Source: a virus
Virus record (IMG/VR): IMGVR_UViG_3300037333_000117
Location: 1-33,515 of that record
Length of the DNA: 33,515 nucleotides
Direction: 5' to 3' (one strand)
The notes under the pieces were generated by a model. It saw only the letters and a program-made list of their open reading frames with translations. It did no database searches and was not told where the DNA came from. Positions within the stretch are counted from its first letter, which is position 1. Every line of letters starts with the position of its first letter. Below, piece after piece: positions 11,218-20,084 of this stretch. Position numbers and translations under genes: made by a program.

Positions 11218-12294
11218 ATGTTTGTTTTACAGGATAAATACGGAATGTGGGCAAATGCCTTTAATCAGGGGTTGCTTCAAGGGTTGCAAGATGCCTACAA
11301 AAGAAAATTAATGGAATACCAAAATCAGCTTGCGGAAGAAAGAGCAAAGCAGGCTTTTAATATATGGAAACAACAAAGGGATTACTTGCTCCAGCAGGAA
11401 GAACAGAAAAGGCAACAACTTCTTAATCATATTTTAGGGCAGCAAGTTGACGTTCCGCAACTTACAGAGCCGAAGTCAGAACCATTAAGCAGGCAGTTTG
11501 ACGTTTCTTTTACACAGCCAAAAACCCTAACTGAAACTCTTGCTAAAAACGTTTCTCTAACTGGCCAACCGCAGCAGCTATTTAGCGATTTAAAACTTGG
11601 TGACGTTACCACCAAAAGAGAATATGTGGGCGGGTTGTTAAGCGACCTTGTCAACAAAAATCCGATGCTTGCGGATATGATAAAGGCAGAAGTTTATGGA
11701 ATACAGATACCTTACGTGAGACCAAAGGTTGCTGGCTTTAAGGTTTTGGATACTGGTGAAAAACTAATTCCGACCGTGATTATGAGTGATGGACGGGTTA
11801 TTATTCCAGGCGAATTTGTTAAGTCTTTATCGCCTAAAGATAGGGAATGGCTTAAAACAAAGAGAAAAGAGCTTGGTGTTAAAATCCAGATGCTTAAAAA
11901 CAAAGAAGCCTTAAATGCGTTTAACACTTGGTATAAACAACAAATGCTTAACCTAAATAAACAAAGGGTTAAGGCTGAACAGGAAAGAGTAAATATCCTA
12001 AAGCAAAAAACACAGAGAACAAACGCAAAACAACCAACACCTGACACACTCTGGCAAAAAGCAGTTAGGCTTGTTAAAACAAAATACGGCATTGAGCCAG
12101 TTAAAGATATAACAGGCGAAATAGTAATCAAGAATCTCTACACAGGCGAAACGTTAGACCCTCAAACATATCAACAAATGGTTGAGCAGGCTTATAGGGA
12201 AATAACTGGGCAAGAACCACCCAAACAACCCCAACAACCAATCCAAACCCCTCAATCAGTTGAGAGATTCTTATCCAACTGGGGGATTAAATAA
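11218..12294 (+). CDS. Internal virion / ejection protein, coiled coil
   Basis: 358 aa, rich in Gln and Lys. Residues about 20-75 and 205-265 are long coiled-coil helices, with a small beta-type region between (IQIPYVRPKVAGFKVLD) and a Pro/Gln-rich linker before the end. It has no catalytic motif. Its place between two ejection-type genes and its one-base overlap (TAATG) with the 1233-aa gene make a T7 gp14/15-like internal core protein the best reading. The start follows GGGGG at 11208-11213. Confidence 0.6.
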   Translation: MFVLQDKYGMWANAFNQGLLQGLQDAYKRKLMEYQNQLAEERAKQAFNIWKQQRDYLLQQEEQKRQQLLNHILGQQVDVPQLTEPKSEPLSRQFDVSFTQPKTLTETLAKNVSLTGQPQQLFSDLKLGDVTTKREYVGGLLSDLVNKNPMLADMIKAEVYGIQIPYVRPKVAGFKVLDTGEKLIPTVIMSDGRVIIPGEFVKSLSPKDREWLKTKRKELGVKIQMLKNKEALNAFNTWYKQQMLNLNKQRVKAEQERVNILKQKTQRTNAKQPTPDTLWQKAVRLVKTKYGIEPVKDITGEIVIKNLYTGETLDPQTYQQMVEQAYREITGQEPPKQPQQPIQTPQSVERFLSNWGIK

Positions 12295-15200
12295 TGGGAA
12301 TTCTTGATATATTTGACGAGGGTAAGCAAGTTAAAGATACACAAGAGCAATTAAGAAATTTTATCATAGATGCCTCTAACCAAATTCCAGAGCTTAAACC
12401 TTATGCCGATAAAATAGCGCAAAAAGTTCAGAGTTTGCACGGCGACCAGCTTTTAATGTTTCTTGACGATATGGTAAAAAATACGCCTTCATTAAAACCT
12501 TATGCCAATAAAATTATTTCCAAGTTTGCTGGTGCTGGTGGTATAACCGAATCTAACATTCAGCCCGAAACTGCAGTTGCTGGCGGGCTTGTTGGTGGCG
12601 CAAGTGCTGGCGGTGTTATTGGTGCTATAAAGGGTGCTGCTTCTGCGCTTGCCACAGAACCAATTTGGGGTGAGGCTTATACCGCTTATGAAAATGTTGT
12701 TAGGAAAAAACTACCCGATTGGCTTAAAGTGCCTGCCGATGTTGCAGTTAATTTCCTAATCGGTCATCTTGTTGGCAAGCTGGGGCAGAAGGGTGAGGAA
12801 ATAACACAAAAGGTTGTATCTAAAATACCAAAAGAAAAGCCAATATCAATTGATGATGTTCATAATATTCTCAAAGAAGTAGAGCAAGAAGCTACCAAAA
12901 CAGGGGACAAGGAAACCGCAAAAGCCATTCAGCAGGCTAAACAGGAGATAACGCCTGAGCAATGGCAAAGGGTGGTTAGGGATATAACGCAGAAAGTTAG
13001 AGAGAAACAACCGCCGAAGCAGTCAATTGAAGATGTTGTTGATGATGTTTCGGACATAAGACCACCAGAGCCGACGCCGAAAGAGAAAATAACCAAGCAG
13101 ATAAAAGATGTGATGCGAAAACAAACTGAGGATGTGCCAAATTCGCCAGGGGTTTATAAACCAACATATACGGTAAAGTCTTCTCAAGAAGAAGGCAATA
13201 TAGTATTCAAACAAATAAAAGATTTAACGAGCAGAATAAAAAGAACAACAAAGACACCGGTTGTTAGGTTGTCGGCTGAATATGAAATTGAAGGTAAACC
13301 TGTAACATTGCATATATACAGAAGTAAACGCATTTCTACAATTGAGTTAGAAGGTAATACACTTCCGATAAAAGAAAAGCTAAAAGAACTTGGTTTTAAA
13401 TGGGACGGTAATAGATGGGTTAAAGAGACAACCTTTGAGGATATTGGTAAAGCGTTAGAGAATGTTGAAAAAATAGGGTTTAAAAATCTTAAACAGGTTG
13501 TAGAAAAAGTTACCGACGATGCACAGTCTGGAATAACTTATTCAACATTAAATAGAGTCCAAGACAATATTAAGCAGTTTACAAAAAAACATCCTGAAAT
13601 AAAACTTTACTCTGGCATCAACCCCCTAAAAGCCTTTGACGCCTTCCATTCTATAATCCGAAGCCTTGACGAAAAATACGGCGACAACAAAGTCCTTTAT
13701 GCAATCCGCCAATTTGCCCGTAAATACTTGGGCGCTGATAAATACGGCTTGCCTTTTCTATCTGAAGAAAGAGAAAATCAACTGATAGATTCTCTTTACG
13801 GCAAAGCAAGACCAATTTACGCTTCCAACATCGAAAAAGGAAAGACTTATGTTGACGCCATTAAAAACTGGATAGGACATAAAAACATAACAGATGGTTT
13901 TGTAATTGAATATCTGGAATCGCCAGAATTTAGGCAGAAGGTTAGAATTGCCTCACAGAAAAACCCTATCTTAAAAGAAATAGCCGATAAGCTGGACGTT
14001 GTTAATAAGCATATAGACGACCTTTCCGAAGAATACTATCAGCGTGGGTTTATAGGCAAAAAGCAGAGAGACAAATGGCAGGGCAGATATCTATCAAGAA
14101 TTTACGATATAGACGAAAAGGCTGGAATTGACAGCCTTGCCAGATTTAGACAGGCTGAAATAAAGAGCGGTAGAAAAATTGAAAACATAATGGCGTTGCC
14201 TGAAGAAGAAAGACGTAAACTTGGATACGTTGAAGATGCTCCTCTTGCCGTTTTAGACACCATTTCTAAAGCCGCCAAAAACATTGCCCTTGATGAGTGG
14301 TATAGAGATATAATCAAAATGCCTGAGCTTGTTCATCAGGATTTTGTTGTTAAGATACCAGAAGAGATTAGAAAAATTAAACCCAAACTTCCCGAATATG
14401 CATCGCCTTATTGGGTTAAAAACAGGCTGATTAAAAACTTACACCAAGAGGGTATAAGCAATGAGCTTTTGCGTAAGTTGGCGAAAGAGGCAAGAGAAAA
14501 GATAAAGGCAATTGAACAAAACGAAGAAGCACTTAAAAAAGCTGGTTGGGCTTCTTTGGGCGACAAACAAAAACTGCGTTACGGGATTCTTTCTGGTTTG
14601 CCTGTTAAAGATAAATTTGCTGGTTGGTTGAAAGGTTTCACAAGCATTACAGACGACCCCGAAGGCGTTTTTAACGCACTTGATAAAGCAATGACAACGT
14701 GGATTTCTTTGTTTAAAACCGCCAAAGTGCCTCTTAACGTTCAGGCGCTTCCACGCAACTGGGTTTCTAACATCTTTCAATGGTATTACTCAGGGGCTAA
14801 TCGTCCATTAAGTTACTTTATGAGGGCGTTAAAAGAGATAAAGACAAACGGCAAATTTTATCAGCTTGCAAAAGAAAATGGACTATTCCACACAAACTTT
14901 ACAGACGAAGAAATAATGAGAGTTTTAAATGAGTTGCACAGCAAAAGTAAAAACAAATTCATCAAGGCGATTACATCAATCTACAAGGCAAAGACTATTG
15001 ATTCCATGATAAAACTCTATTCTGCCGTTGATGATGTTTGGAAACTTGCCAGAATGATTTATGCTTTAGAGCGTGAGAAAAAAGGAATAACCCAGGCAAT
15101 AAGAACTGCACAAGACGCTCATTTTGATTATTCGCTTGTTGGCAATATTATAAGGGCTATGAGAGACCCGAACATAAAGCACGGAACGGCATTAAAGCTA

Positions 15201-15995
15201 ATTGCCCCTCTATTCCCAACTTATATGCAAAAGTCTTGGGCTTATCTAATAGAGTCTTTAACCAAGAGACCATTCCAGACATCGCTTGTTTTGGCAGCAC
15301 CAATTTTATTGGCTCACAAAATAAAACAAATACTTGAGGAAAAATATGGCAAGGACACAGTAGAAAAGGCCTACAAATATATGCCAGAATACTTACCGAA
15401 AGATACAACGATTGTTTGGTCAAAAGACGGAAAAAATTGGTTCTACATTCCAATAACCTACATTTTGCCTCACGGCTGGCTTGTTGAAACTGCCGAGGAT
15501 TTAGCAAGCGGTGATTTGACGGAAGCTGGCAAAGATATCGGTGCAATGGGATTACCGATTTACACGTTGGTTGATATTATGAAAAACCAAGATAGACTTG
15601 GACGTCCGATTTACAAAGATTACGATGCCACCCTTGCTAAAATGGGCGATTGGAAAGCAAAAGGTGAAGTTGCCAAAGATGTTTTAGGCTACATTTGGCA
15701 ACAAACTCTTGAGCCTGGAACTTTAACAAACTTGAGGCATTTAAGAGAAACCAAACATCCTGTTTTGCCCCGTCTTGCAGGACAGCCAGTTTATGAGTAT
15801 AATATATCGGAACTTGAGCGTTGGAAAGCATTAGAACTTAAACAAAAAATCAATGAGATTAAGAAAGATATGGTGAGAATTCAAGGGCAGTATAAAAAAG
15901 GACAAATAACAAAAGAGGAAAGAAATAAAGCTCTCAAAGAACTCAAACAAAAAATCAGAGAACTTGTTGAAGGGTATAAAAATGAATTGCGTTAG
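12294..15995 (+). CDS. Large internal virion / ejection protein
   Basis: 1233 aa, the longest gene. Residues 31-42 and 64-75 repeat a PxLKPYAxKI motif. Residues 95-121 form a Gly/Ala zipper (AVAGGLVGGASAGGVIGAIK) that could span a membrane. Near 363-379 there is a LKELGFKWDGNRW segment seen in diverse mobile-element proteins. The second half is helical, with PLNVQALPRNWVSNIFQW near 812-830, typical of large phage internal proteins, and a coiled-coil C-terminus. It probably enters the host to form a conduit, as T7 gp16 does. No transglycosylase catalytic motif was found in it. Confidence 0.7.
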   Translation: MGILDIFDEGKQVKDTQEQLRNFIIDASNQIPELKPYADKIAQKVQSLHGDQLLMFLDDMVKNTPSLKPYANKIISKFAGAGGITESNIQPETAVAGGLVGGASAGGVIGAIKGAASALATEPIWGEAYTAYENVVRKKLPDWLKVPADVAVNFLIGHLVGKLGQKGEEITQKVVSKIPKEKPISIDDVHNILKEVEQEATKTGDKETAKAIQQAKQEITPEQWQRVVRDITQKVREKQPPKQSIEDVVDDVSDIRPPEPTPKEKITKQIKDVMRKQTEDVPNSPGVYKPTYTVKSSQEEGNIVFKQIKDLTSRIKRTTKTPVVRLSAEYEIEGKPVTLHIYRSKRISTIELEGNTLPIKEKLKELGFKWDGNRWVKETTFEDIGKALENVEKIGFKNLKQVVEKVTDDAQSGITYSTLNRVQDNIKQFTKKHPEIKLYSGINPLKAFDAFHSIIRSLDEKYGDNKVLYAIRQFARKYLGADKYGLPFLSEERENQLIDSLYGKARPIYASNIEKGKTYVDAIKNWIGHKNITDGFVIEYLESPEFRQKVRIASQKNPILKEIADKLDVVNKHIDDLSEEYYQRGFIGKKQRDKWQGRYLSRIYDIDEKAGIDSLARFRQAEIKSGRKIENIMALPEEERRKLGYVEDAPLAVLDTISKAAKNIALDEWYRDIIKMPELVHQDFVVKIPEEIRKIKPKLPEYASPYWVKNRLIKNLHQEGISNELLRKLAKEAREKIKAIEQNEEALKKAGWASLGDKQKLRYGILSGLPVKDKFAGWLKGFTSITDDPEGVFNALDKAMTTWISLFKTAKVPLNVQALPRNWVSNIFQWYYSGANRPLSYFMRALKEIKTNGKFYQLAKENGLFHTNFTDEEIMRVLNELHSKSKNKFIKAITSIYKAKTIDSMIKLYSAVDDVWKLARMIYALEREKKGITQAIRTAQDAHFDYSLVGNIIRAMRDPNIKHGTALKLIAPLFPTYMQKSWAYLIESLTKRPFQTSLVLAAPILLAHKIKQILEEKYGKDTVEKAYKYMPEYLPKDTTIVWSKDGKNWFYIPITYILPHGWLVETAEDLASGDLTEAGKDIGAMGLPIYTLVDIMKNQDRLGRPIYKDYDATLAKMGDWKAKGEVAKDVLGYIWQQTLEPGTLTNLRHLRETKHPVLPRLAGQPVYEYNISELERWKALELKQKINEIKKDMVRIQGQYKKGQITKEERNKALKELKQKIRELVEGYKNELR

Positions 15996-17204: not shown

Positions 17205-17753
17205 ATGGATGCTTTTGAACGGGCATTTGAGCTTGTATTAAAGTTTGAAGGTGGTTATGTCAACGACCCAGATGACCCAGGCAAGGCTACCAAATTTGGG
17301 ATTTCACAAAGACAATTTCCCAACTTAGACATCAAAAACCTAACAATTGAGCAAGCTAAAGAAATCTACTATAAAAACTACTGGCTTCCCGCCAAATGCG
17401 ATAAAGTTGCCGACATCAATATATATCTTGCTATTCTTCTATTTGATACTACCGTAAACATCGGAATTAAAACGGCAGTCAAAATTTTACAAAAAGCAAT
17501 TAATAAATATGGTTTCGCAATTAAAGAAGACGGCATAATTGGAGAAATAACCCTACAACATATAAAAGCCTGCAACGTTGAGTGTCTTATAAGGGATTTT
17601 TGTTTAGAAAGGATACGATATTATGTGGAAATAAGCAAAAAGAAAAACCTGCGTAAGTTTCTAAGAGGCTGGATTTTCCGAGTTCTGGAGGGATTTGATG
17701 AAGTTTATTTCGGTAAAAGAAAAAGCGGAAGTAGAGTTAATTCCTCTGGCTGA
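17205..17753 (+). CDS. Endolysin, GH108-type muramidase
   Basis: 182 aa. Residues 13-33 (KFEGGYVNDPDDPGKATKFG) match the GH108 lysozyme family, with catalytic Glu15 in the EGGY motif, and AKEIYYKNYW follows. The C-terminal half (about 90-165; INKYGFAIKEDGIIGEITLQ) fits the peptidoglycan-binding module (PG_binding_3) usual in these enzymes. No signal peptide is seen, so holin-dependent release is expected. The stop lies 56 bases inside the following phosphoesterase gene. Confidence 0.9.
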   Translation: MDAFERAFELVLKFEGGYVNDPDDPGKATKFGISQRQFPNLDIKNLTIEQAKEIYYKNYWLPAKCDKVADINIYLAILLFDTTVNIGIKTAVKILQKAINKYGFAIKEDGIIGEITLQHIKACNVECLIRDFCLERIRYYVEISKKKNLRKFLRGWIFRVLEGFDEVYFGKRKSGSRVNSSG

Positions 17754-19410
17754 CCTTCATTTAGGCTCTGAAAATTGTAATCTCAGACTAATTCATCAAA
17801 CAATTGAATACATAAAAGAAAACCCAAAGGCAAGGGTGGTAATTCTGGGGGATGTCTTAGAAACCGCAATAATCGGCAGTAAAGGAAATCCTTATTTTGC
17901 TAAATCTCTTGAAGAAGAAGTTAAATTAGCCGTAGATGTATTAAAGCCTATAAAAGATAAGGTTTTAGGCGTGATAAATGGAAATCACGAATGTGTTGAA
18001 GCGTTTAAAACAGAAATACTAACGGCTAATGGGTGGAAAATAGCGAACGAAATTACTGAAAAAGATAAGATTGCACAGTTTGATATGGAAACAGGAGAAA
18101 TTTCCTTTTCTCGCCCCCTAAAGGTGTCTTTTTATTATGTGGATAAAATTGTTAAAGTAAAAACAAACCAAGGAGAAGAACTTGTTACATTAAACCACTG
18201 TTTGGTTGTCAATGGCAAAAGGGTAAGGGTTGATAAATTAATGCAAGAGGGTCTAAACCAAAAAGACCAAAGGTTTGCGGGAAAATATAAGCACGGCAAA
18301 AAAGTTAACCTTTCCCCAGACCAAGTGAGGCTAATAACTTGGCTTGTTACAGACGGAACTTGGGTCTCTTGTTCAAGAGGAAAGAAAAGGTTGCAATGGA
18401 AACTTTCCAAAGAAAGAAAGATTAAAGAATTAACGTCTTTGCTTGAAAAATTAGGAATTCCCTATACTTTTAGGCTTGCCACCAAGTGTGGTTGCAACAA
18501 ACTTCAGCCTTATTTAATTAGAGTTTATGGCAAATGGGCAAGGATTATTTATCGTTATTTAAGGGGTAAAAAACAATTTCCTGAATGGTTTAAATACTTA
18601 AACAAAGAACAACTTTTAGCTTTACTTGAAACTTTAGCTATCACGGATGGGAATTATAGCTATAACCATATCGTTTGGATTTCCACCAATAAACACAATG
18701 TAGACACCATTCAGTTGGCTTGTATTTATAATGACATTCCCTGTAAATATACTCTTAACAAGAAAAGGTCAGGTTTTAAAACGGGGAAACCACAATACCA
18801 CGTTTCCATCTATCCCAACGGGATTCATTATAAGTGGGCTTCTTTCGAAGTTATTCAAGGTAAATTCAAGGTGGCAGCAATTGCAATGCCAAAACAAACT
18901 TTAATAACAAGAGTAAGTGGCAGGGTTAACTTTACTGGAAATAGTAGAATTTCTAAAGCAATAGGGCTTGATATTTTGGGGCTAATCTGCCGCAAATTAG
19001 GCATAGGCGACAAATATTCCCCCGGTTTTCTTGTTATTAGGCTTTCACTTCCCAAAACGGCTTGGTATATAGTCCTGCATCACGGTTATGGTGGCGGACG
19101 CCTAAAGGGTGGGAAGATTAATAATTTGCAGAGGTTGGGCAACTTATTCCCAAATGCTGACTTTATTCTGATGGGACACACGCACGATTTTATTATGACT
19201 ACGGACAAAAAATTTATCATAGACAAAAAACACAACCTAATTAAAGAACATACCACTTATTTTATAAACGTGCCATCGTTTTTAAACTACGGGGGATATG
19301 CAGAGCAATACGCATACCCCCTGCAAAGTTCAGGCGTGGTAAAAATAACGTTGCCGAACGTGTTAAACTTCTACAAAAACAGCATCAAGATAGAGCCGTT
19401 GTTTCAATAG
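17698..19410 (+). CDS. Metallophosphoesterase precursor with an in-frame intein
   Basis: 570 aa precursor of a calcineurin-like phosphoesterase. Host-protein motifs are D19-L-H21 (motif I), GD at 51-52, GNHE at 95-98, HHGYGGG at 461-467 and GHTH at 493-496: a complete metal site once residues 99-415 are removed, leaving about 253 aa. The intein (see separate entry) sits right after GNHE, so the unspliced protein has its metal ligands split by 317 residues and should be inactive. The ATG at 17698 has TGGAGGGA upstream and lies inside the endolysin gene. Substrate unknown; such enzymes act on nucleic acids, nucleotides or phosphoproteins. Last gene of the + late operon. Confidence 0.92.
   Translation: MKFISVKEKAEVELIPLADLHLGSENCNLRLIHQTIEYIKENPKARVVILGDVLETAIIGSKGNPYFAKSLEEEVKLAVDVLKPIKDKVLGVINGNHECVEAFKTEILTANGWKIANEITEKDKIAQFDMETGEISFSRPLKVSFYYVDKIVKVKTNQGEELVTLNHCLVVNGKRVRVDKLMQEGLNQKDQRFAGKYKHGKKVNLSPDQVRLITWLVTDGTWVSCSRGKKRLQWKLSKERKIKELTSLLEKLGIPYTFRLATKCGCNKLQPYLIRVYGKWARIIYRYLRGKKQFPEWFKYLNKEQLLALLETLAITDGNYSYNHIVWISTNKHNVDTIQLACIYNDIPCKYTLNKKRSGFKTGKPQYHVSIYPNGIHYKWASFEVIQGKFKVAAIAMPKQTLITRVSGRVNFTGNSRISKAIGLDILGLICRKLGIGDKYSPGFLVIRLSLPKTAWYIVLHHGYGGGRLKGGKINNLQRLGNLFPNADFILMGHTHDFIMTTDKKFIIDKKHNLIKEHTTYFINVPSFLNYGGYAEQYAYPLQSSGVVKITLPNVLNFYKNSIKIEPLFQ
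17992..18942 (+). mobile_element. Intein with LAGLIDADG-type homing endonuclease domain
   Basis: 317 residues inserted in frame. It starts with Cys99 followed by an EILTANGWKIANEI block typical of splicing block A. A TLNHCLVV block (TxxH, block B) follows near 159-166. The endonuclease core has two LAGLIDADG-like motifs: LITWLVTDGT at 212-221 and LETLAITDGN near 310-319. The C-terminal end is VNFTGN with Asn415, followed by Ser416 as the +1 nucleophile. The penultimate residue is Gly rather than the usual His, a known variation. DOD acidic residues (the D of each TDG) are present, so homing activity may be intact. Confidence 0.9.
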
Positions 19411-19438: not shown

Positions 19439-19894
19439 TTAATTTTGAGGTATTACAGCACCTTCGGTTTGATACAGGCGAAATATATCAACGTTTTGAG
19501 CGGTTAATAGAACCTTAAAGGCATATCTCTTTGCCTGTTTCCCATTTCCATTATACCTTTCAACCGCCTCTGCCCAACTTCCAGTTTGGTTGTAGTAATA
19601 TTTTAAGATTTCTGCTCCAGCTAAAGCATTTGCATAGCAGTCAAACAAGAAATCTGGATAATCAAATCTCCAAACTTTCGGGTTGATTTGCATCAACCCG
19701 ATTTCTCCATATCTACCTACGGCATCGCACTTAAACCTGCTTTCTGTATATGCAACGGCGGTTAAAATATCAAGAGGCACACCCGTGCGTTGGTGTGCCA
19801 CGTAAAGCGCAGAAGCAGGAATTTGGGCTTGTTGGACTGGCATTTCTGTGAGGTGGGTAATGATTAAGGTTAGTAAAATTATTACCTTATTCAT
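19439..19894 (-). CDS. Secreted lytic transglycosylase, SLT type
   Basis: 151 aa. The N-terminal KVIILLTLIITHLTEMP is a signal peptide or anchor. The catalytic domain follows: AVAYTESRF with Glu51, GEIGLMQI at 63-70, and NALAGAEIL and ERYNGNG further on, the normal order of SLT muramidases. It would cut peptidoglycan from the periplasmic side. It is the last gene of the - early operon, not part of the late lysis cassette. The start at 19894 has GAGAGAGGAAG upstream and overlaps the previous gene by 8 bases. Perhaps it acts in wall remodelling or host exclusion. Confidence 0.85.
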   Translation of the reverse strand: MNKVIILLTLIITHLTEMPVQQAQIPASALYVAHQRTGVPLDILTAVAYTESRFKCDAVGRYGEIGLMQINPKVWRFDYPDFLFDCYANALAGAEILKYYYNQTGSWAEAVERYNGNGKQAKRYAFKVLLTAQNVDIFRLYQTEGAVIPQN

Positions 19895-20084
19895 CTTCCT
19901 CTCTCCCTTCACTTGCTTCCATCTCACTATCACATAAAATATTTTCACAAGTCAATTCTTTTCCTATATAAATTGCATGCTCTAATCTTTTGGCTAATTC
20001 ATGTGACTTACAAAATTGGTAGTAACTTTGTATAGCGACAACTCTTTGTAAATACTCTTGTTCACTTTCCAAGAAAGACATCAT
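19887..20084 (-). CDS. Small hypothetical protein
   Basis: 65 aa, no recognised family. Mostly helical with several Cys and Glu (EYLQRVVAIQSYYQFCKSHE, then a very acidic end). The start is the first of two adjacent ATG codons, behind AGGAGGTTA; a longer frame upstream lacks a ribosome binding site. The stop overlaps the transglycosylase start by 8 bases. It is a normal member of the early operon. Confidence 0.65.
   Translation of the reverse strand: MMSFLESEQEYLQRVVAIQSYYQFCKSHELAKRLEHAIYIGKELTCENILCDSEMEASEGREEDE

Follow-up and report, generated by a model that had tools for sequence, protein, structure and literature searches.

In the window (the whole 33,515-base stretch of a tailed phage genome that was analysed, from an IMG/VR virus record), the insert within the 570-aa open reading frame at 17698-19410 (+ strand) is very probably a class 1 intein, mobile and carrying a LAGLIDADG homing endonuclease that appears intact. 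It lies directly after GNHE, the metal/catalytic motif of a host that belongs to the calcineurin-like metallophosphoesterases (PHROG 7339), and is predicted, from the sequence and a structural model, to be spliced out to give a 253-aa enzyme.

The tailed-phage genes of the window encode an SU10-type portal, a terminase, a major head protein, a holin and a GH108 endolysin (17205-17753). The ATG of the precursor at 17698 lies within the 3' end of the endolysin gene, and a Shine-Dalgarno sequence (GGAGG) was seen by eye a few bases 5' of it. The placement of the phosphoesterase gene next to the endolysin in a preliminary description of this DNA was supported. The position is not peculiar, since the intein-free phosphoesterase homologue of Marinitoga phage MPV1 also adjoins lysis genes. 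A transglycosylase SLT gene at 19439-19948 lies on the other strand and points towards the phosphoesterase gene; counting the GH108 endolysin, this small phage has two enzymes that act on the cell wall. In addition, a 1233-aa protein is encoded downstream of the structural genes (12294-15995); it matched nothing in PHROG at E<0.01, and none of its Pfam matches exceeded the curated cut-off.

The N-extein (17698-17991, 98 aa) contains the phosphoesterase motifs DxH (D19, H21), GD (51-52) and GNHE (95-98), and the C-extein (18943-19410, 155 aa from Ser+1) contains the remaining motifs HHGYGGG and GHTH. Between them, the insert (17992-18942, 317 aa) begins with TGT (Cys1) at 17992 and ends with AAT (Asn317) at 18940-18942, followed by AGT (Ser+1). 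Within the insert, block B (T66-L-N-H69) is encoded at 18187-18198, the first LAGLIDADG-type motif (LITWLVTDG, residues 114-122, with Asp121) at 18331-18357, the second (LLETLAITDG, residues 211-220, with Asp219) at 18622-18651, and blocks F and G at 18874-18942, all on the + strand. Blocks F and G read AAIAMPKQTLITRVSGRVNFTGN, where Ala296 is position F:4, Gly316 is G:6 and Asn317 is G:7. The boundaries proposed earlier (17992-18942, residues 99-415, joined host of 253 aa) were exact when counted from the ATG at 17698, and the Cys1, block B, two LAGLIDADG-type motifs (D121, D219), terminal Gly-Asn and phosphoesterase motifs on both sides of the insert were all present as described.

By sequence comparison, the host of the insert is predicted to be a phage calcineurin-like metallophosphoesterase of PHROG 7339. 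The unspliced ORF matched this family ('DNA repair exonuclease') with E=3e-39, the joined extein matched PF00149 with 25.7 bits, above the cut-off, and the full motif set of calcineurin-like phosphoesterases (D-H, GD, GNH(E/D), H and GHxH) was found in the joined extein. The joined 253-aa extein matched 26 phage records, each covering 80% or more of it and with at most 34% identity. Of these 26, 13 intein-free homologues aligned with it end to end, straight through GNHE|SRIS; in these 13, the join reads GNH(E/D/T)xR and the phosphoesterase motifs are in register.

In the single-sequence domain search, the insert scored under the curated cut-offs both with TIGR01445 (intein_Nterm, E=0.0012) and with PF14528 (LAGLIDADG_3, E=0.0025); these matches are weak but name the correct domains. 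Such scores are all that was found in favour of an ordinary accessory domain of the phosphoesterase family in place of an intein. Homologues carrying the segment as a conserved domain had been named in advance as evidence against an intein, and the 13 full-length homologues lack the segment, which already contradicts the accessory-domain reading; intein profile and fold matches also speak against it, and it can be given almost no credence.

The window insert matched the same-motif insert of Rheinheimera phages with 36.5% identity over 99% (E=3e-55), and a profile of 24 same-site inserts matched solved inteins with E=2e-17. The AlphaFold2 model of the insert had a pLDDT of 91.4, and its best PDB matches were inteins and I-DmoI, with Foldseek hits to the TliVMA intein (E=8e-15) and also to PI-SceI and I-DmoI. 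The model of the whole precursor was moderate only (pLDDT 76, pTM 0.61), and nearly every PDB match listed for it was an intein or endonuclease structure, with no phosphoesterase structure among them. Residues C1, T7, T11, H69, P197, G316 and N317 were invariant among 24 aligned same-site inteins. The Cys1 nucleophile, T66/H69, Asn317 followed by Ser+1, absence of the insertion from homologues and the splicing-domain fold indicate a class 1 intein, and two helices with catalytic Asp residues (D121 and D219) and the I-DmoI fold match indicate a LAGLIDADG endonuclease. From sequence and insert model together, the insert is assigned as a class 1 intein with a two-motif LAGLIDADG endonuclease, and the earlier proposal that a phage metallophosphoesterase is interrupted by an intein at its GNHE motif was upheld by the homologue alignment, the PHROG match and the intein profile and fold matches.

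The precursor would be translated whole, intein included, and Cys1, Ser+1 and Asn317 would then allow the insert to be excised and GNHE to be joined to SRIS in the 253-aa enzyme. We infer that the window copy splices and that its endonuclease cuts. Within the calcineurin-like superfamily, the GNH(E/D) codons probably rank with the most conserved stretches and would offer the endonuclease many hosts, and imprecise loss of the intein would destroy the enzyme, so that the site would persist.

The penultimate Gly in place of His had been taken as a possible cause of slow or conditional splicing, which was not supported. This Gly is invariant across the same-site set, and the RDF intein (Bethlehem gp51), with a penultimate Gly, spliced completely, whereas its G316H variant was slow and accumulated precursor (PMC5050341). 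Because its endonuclease was linked to toxicity, that intein was examined with the endonuclease inactivated by mutation (PMC5050341). Gly for His was accordingly rejected as a sign of slow splicing.

The loss of the F:4 residue, overlooked earlier, is a better reason than the Gly to ask about splicing speed. F:4 is Ala296 in the window intein, which belongs to a seven-member clade (support 92/96); F:4 is A, G or S in all members of this clade and in no others, and it is Cys or Asp in the remaining same-site inteins (26/26). Positions F:4, F:13 and G:6 are listed as residues assisting the C-terminal splicing steps (PMC4031507), and the window intein lacks the Asp/Cys at F:4, the His at F:13 and the His at G:6 (Gly316). 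With Ala at F:4 and His missing from both F:13 and G:6, the intein could be inactive or splice slowly. The missing residues, common in class 1 inteins without strictly defining them, do not decide class 1 membership, since F:4 and F:13 are termed less conserved and splicing without the penultimate His is cited (PMC4031507).

It is unlikely that these absences retard the C-terminal steps or make them depend on conditions, and so gate the phosphoesterase during infection. The confinement of A/G/S to the seven-member clade, the assisting role of the three positions and the insertion at a catalytic motif are consistent with such slow or conditional splicing, but in the RDF intein a penultimate Gly by itself allows full splicing, and the F:4-less clade retains Cys1, block B, Asn and Ser/Cys at +1 in diverse phages, which suggests selection for splicing. 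For this clade as a whole, window included, a tentative and less likely reading is that every listed C-terminal assist residue (F:4, F:13, G:6) has been lost and that splicing is completed with a different assist, or is tuned to a condition and so gates the host enzyme. The F:4 loss is a ground for measuring splicing speed, not evidence of regulation. A dead intein, with splicing lost and the enzyme either lost or keeping the insert as an inactive domain, would also fit three missing assist residues, but it is highly improbable given that the reading frame is open on both sides of the insert, all nucleophiles and both endonuclease Asp residues are retained, and the joined extein keeps every phosphoesterase motif.

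Complete inteins at the same GNH(E/D) motif numbered 33 including the window (32 elsewhere), and the set comprised IMG/VR loci found by DNA pattern, Barba18A, Stenotrophomonas BUCTxx99, Klebsiella fENko-Kae01 and mycobacteriophage RDF. Two junction DNA patterns (GNH..C..TxVLT), which demand Cys1 and TxVLT and are therefore intein-selective by design, gave 31 IMG/VR loci, 30 of them with inteins at this motif; L047 was a chance pattern match, and L043 and L046 are truncated where the locus ends. By tblastn, 83 Rheinheimera phage records had an insert about 37% identical, placed at GNH|C in a small phosphoesterase that differs from the window host. Barba18A carries this related insert, and the Barba19A host is uninterrupted, 79% identical and reads GNHD, a natural empty site. 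When the complete ORF, the joined extein or a two-row intein alignment served as query, viral_contigs and genome_contigs yielded nothing except one RNR intein. An IMG/VR phage ribonucleotide reductase (L002, 4485-7748) apparently holds two separate inteins.

By BLAST, with links at E<1e-5, the joined exteins of the same-site inteins separate into at least seven groups. In a Pfam scan of 10 further hosts, Metallophos was found at E<0.01 in L021, L030, L032, L040, L044 and L045, the unspliced RDF ORF had a weak match (0.024), and there was no Metallophos match for L028, L039 or the unspliced BUCTxx99 ORF. Host identity for L028 and L039 rests on motifs seen by eye, and that for BUCTxx99 on annotated metallophosphoesterase relatives that are 42-48% identical. 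The inteins of RDF adjoin a conserved motif of the metallophosphoesterase domain and were published in 2016 (PMC5050341). With at least seven extein groups occupied and this precedent, the view that such a late-operon host is uncommon was not supported. In the open-access literature search, only PMC5050341 was relevant to inteins and calcineurin-like phosphoesterases, and the breadth of the site may already be published elsewhere; the annotations of Barba gp070 and fENko ENKO_296 do not mention an intein.

Variation among the same-site inteins was also observed. In the Barba phages (L001 6010-6954; L050 1501-2049), the intein allele joins to GNHC and the intein-free sister reads GNHD, so the required Cys+1 seems to have taken the place of the acidic residue of the motif; the GNH|C arrangement also occurs in L044, L045, L048, L049 and fENko-Kae01. 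L029 (2159-2839) is a same-site mini-intein of 227 aa with most of the endonuclease gone, and in its relatives BUCTxx99 and L026 the length is kept and the catalytic Asp residues are lost. L030 (3791-4750) is a same-site intein within a 1378-aa ORF with a confirmed Metallophos domain, and its host resembles, by eye, RNA repair enzymes of the kinase-phosphatase-ligase type.

Tree building with 40 rows paired the window intein with that of L021 (100/99; 54% identity), and the pair was nested in a clade of 20 same-site inteins (99/97). The L021 host is closest to the L022 host (E=6e-28) and only 34% identical to the window host over 74 aa (E=3e-5). Since the closest intein sits in a distantly related phosphoesterase, the intein has moved between phosphoesterase host families. 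Likewise, the L027 host is about 40% identical to the L019 and L020 hosts, yet its intein belongs to the other intein group. Although the best tree calls for three host-label changes, the data did not reject one common origin for all the same-site inteins (AU p=0.12), and for this reason no number of invasions is claimed.

One four-residue metal-site motif, shared across the superfamily, is thus a recurrent intein home in unrelated phage enzymes. With closely related inteins in distantly related hosts, the jumping of inteins from one paralogous gene to another can be tested directly. Isolated intein-plus and intein-minus sister phages exist (Rheinheimera Barba), and the F:4-less clade offers a natural way to learn which assist residues are required for protein splicing.

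Among known systems, SargentShorty9 gp54 (L054), which served as the RDF comparison sequence (the splicing data are for Bethlehem gp51, PMC5050341), also has a calcineurin-like phosphoesterase host with the insertion directly after GNHD, and its intein shares with that of the window the length of 317 aa, Cys1, Gly316, Ser+1 and both LAGLIDADG Asp residues. However, it is only 21% identical to the window intein, belongs to a different intein group and host family, and has Cys at F:4 where the window has Ala. The L021 intein (IMG/VR contig 3300026512_000033), the sister of the window intein, shares the site and the F:4 loss, but its host is in another phosphoesterase group. The Rheinheimera Barba intein (NC_048189 gp070, annotated as phosphoesterase only) comes from an isolated phage with an intein-free sister strain and resembles the window intein in its motif, its F:4 loss and 37% identity; it differs in lying after GNH rather than GNHE, with Cys+1 filling the acidic position, and in its host, a small phosphoesterase that belongs to another group. 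The TliVMA and PI-SceI inteins (PDB 7qsu, 1vde) have the same architecture of a splicing domain with a nested LAGLIDADG endonuclease, but their identity to the window intein is about 10-13% and their hosts are ATPases.
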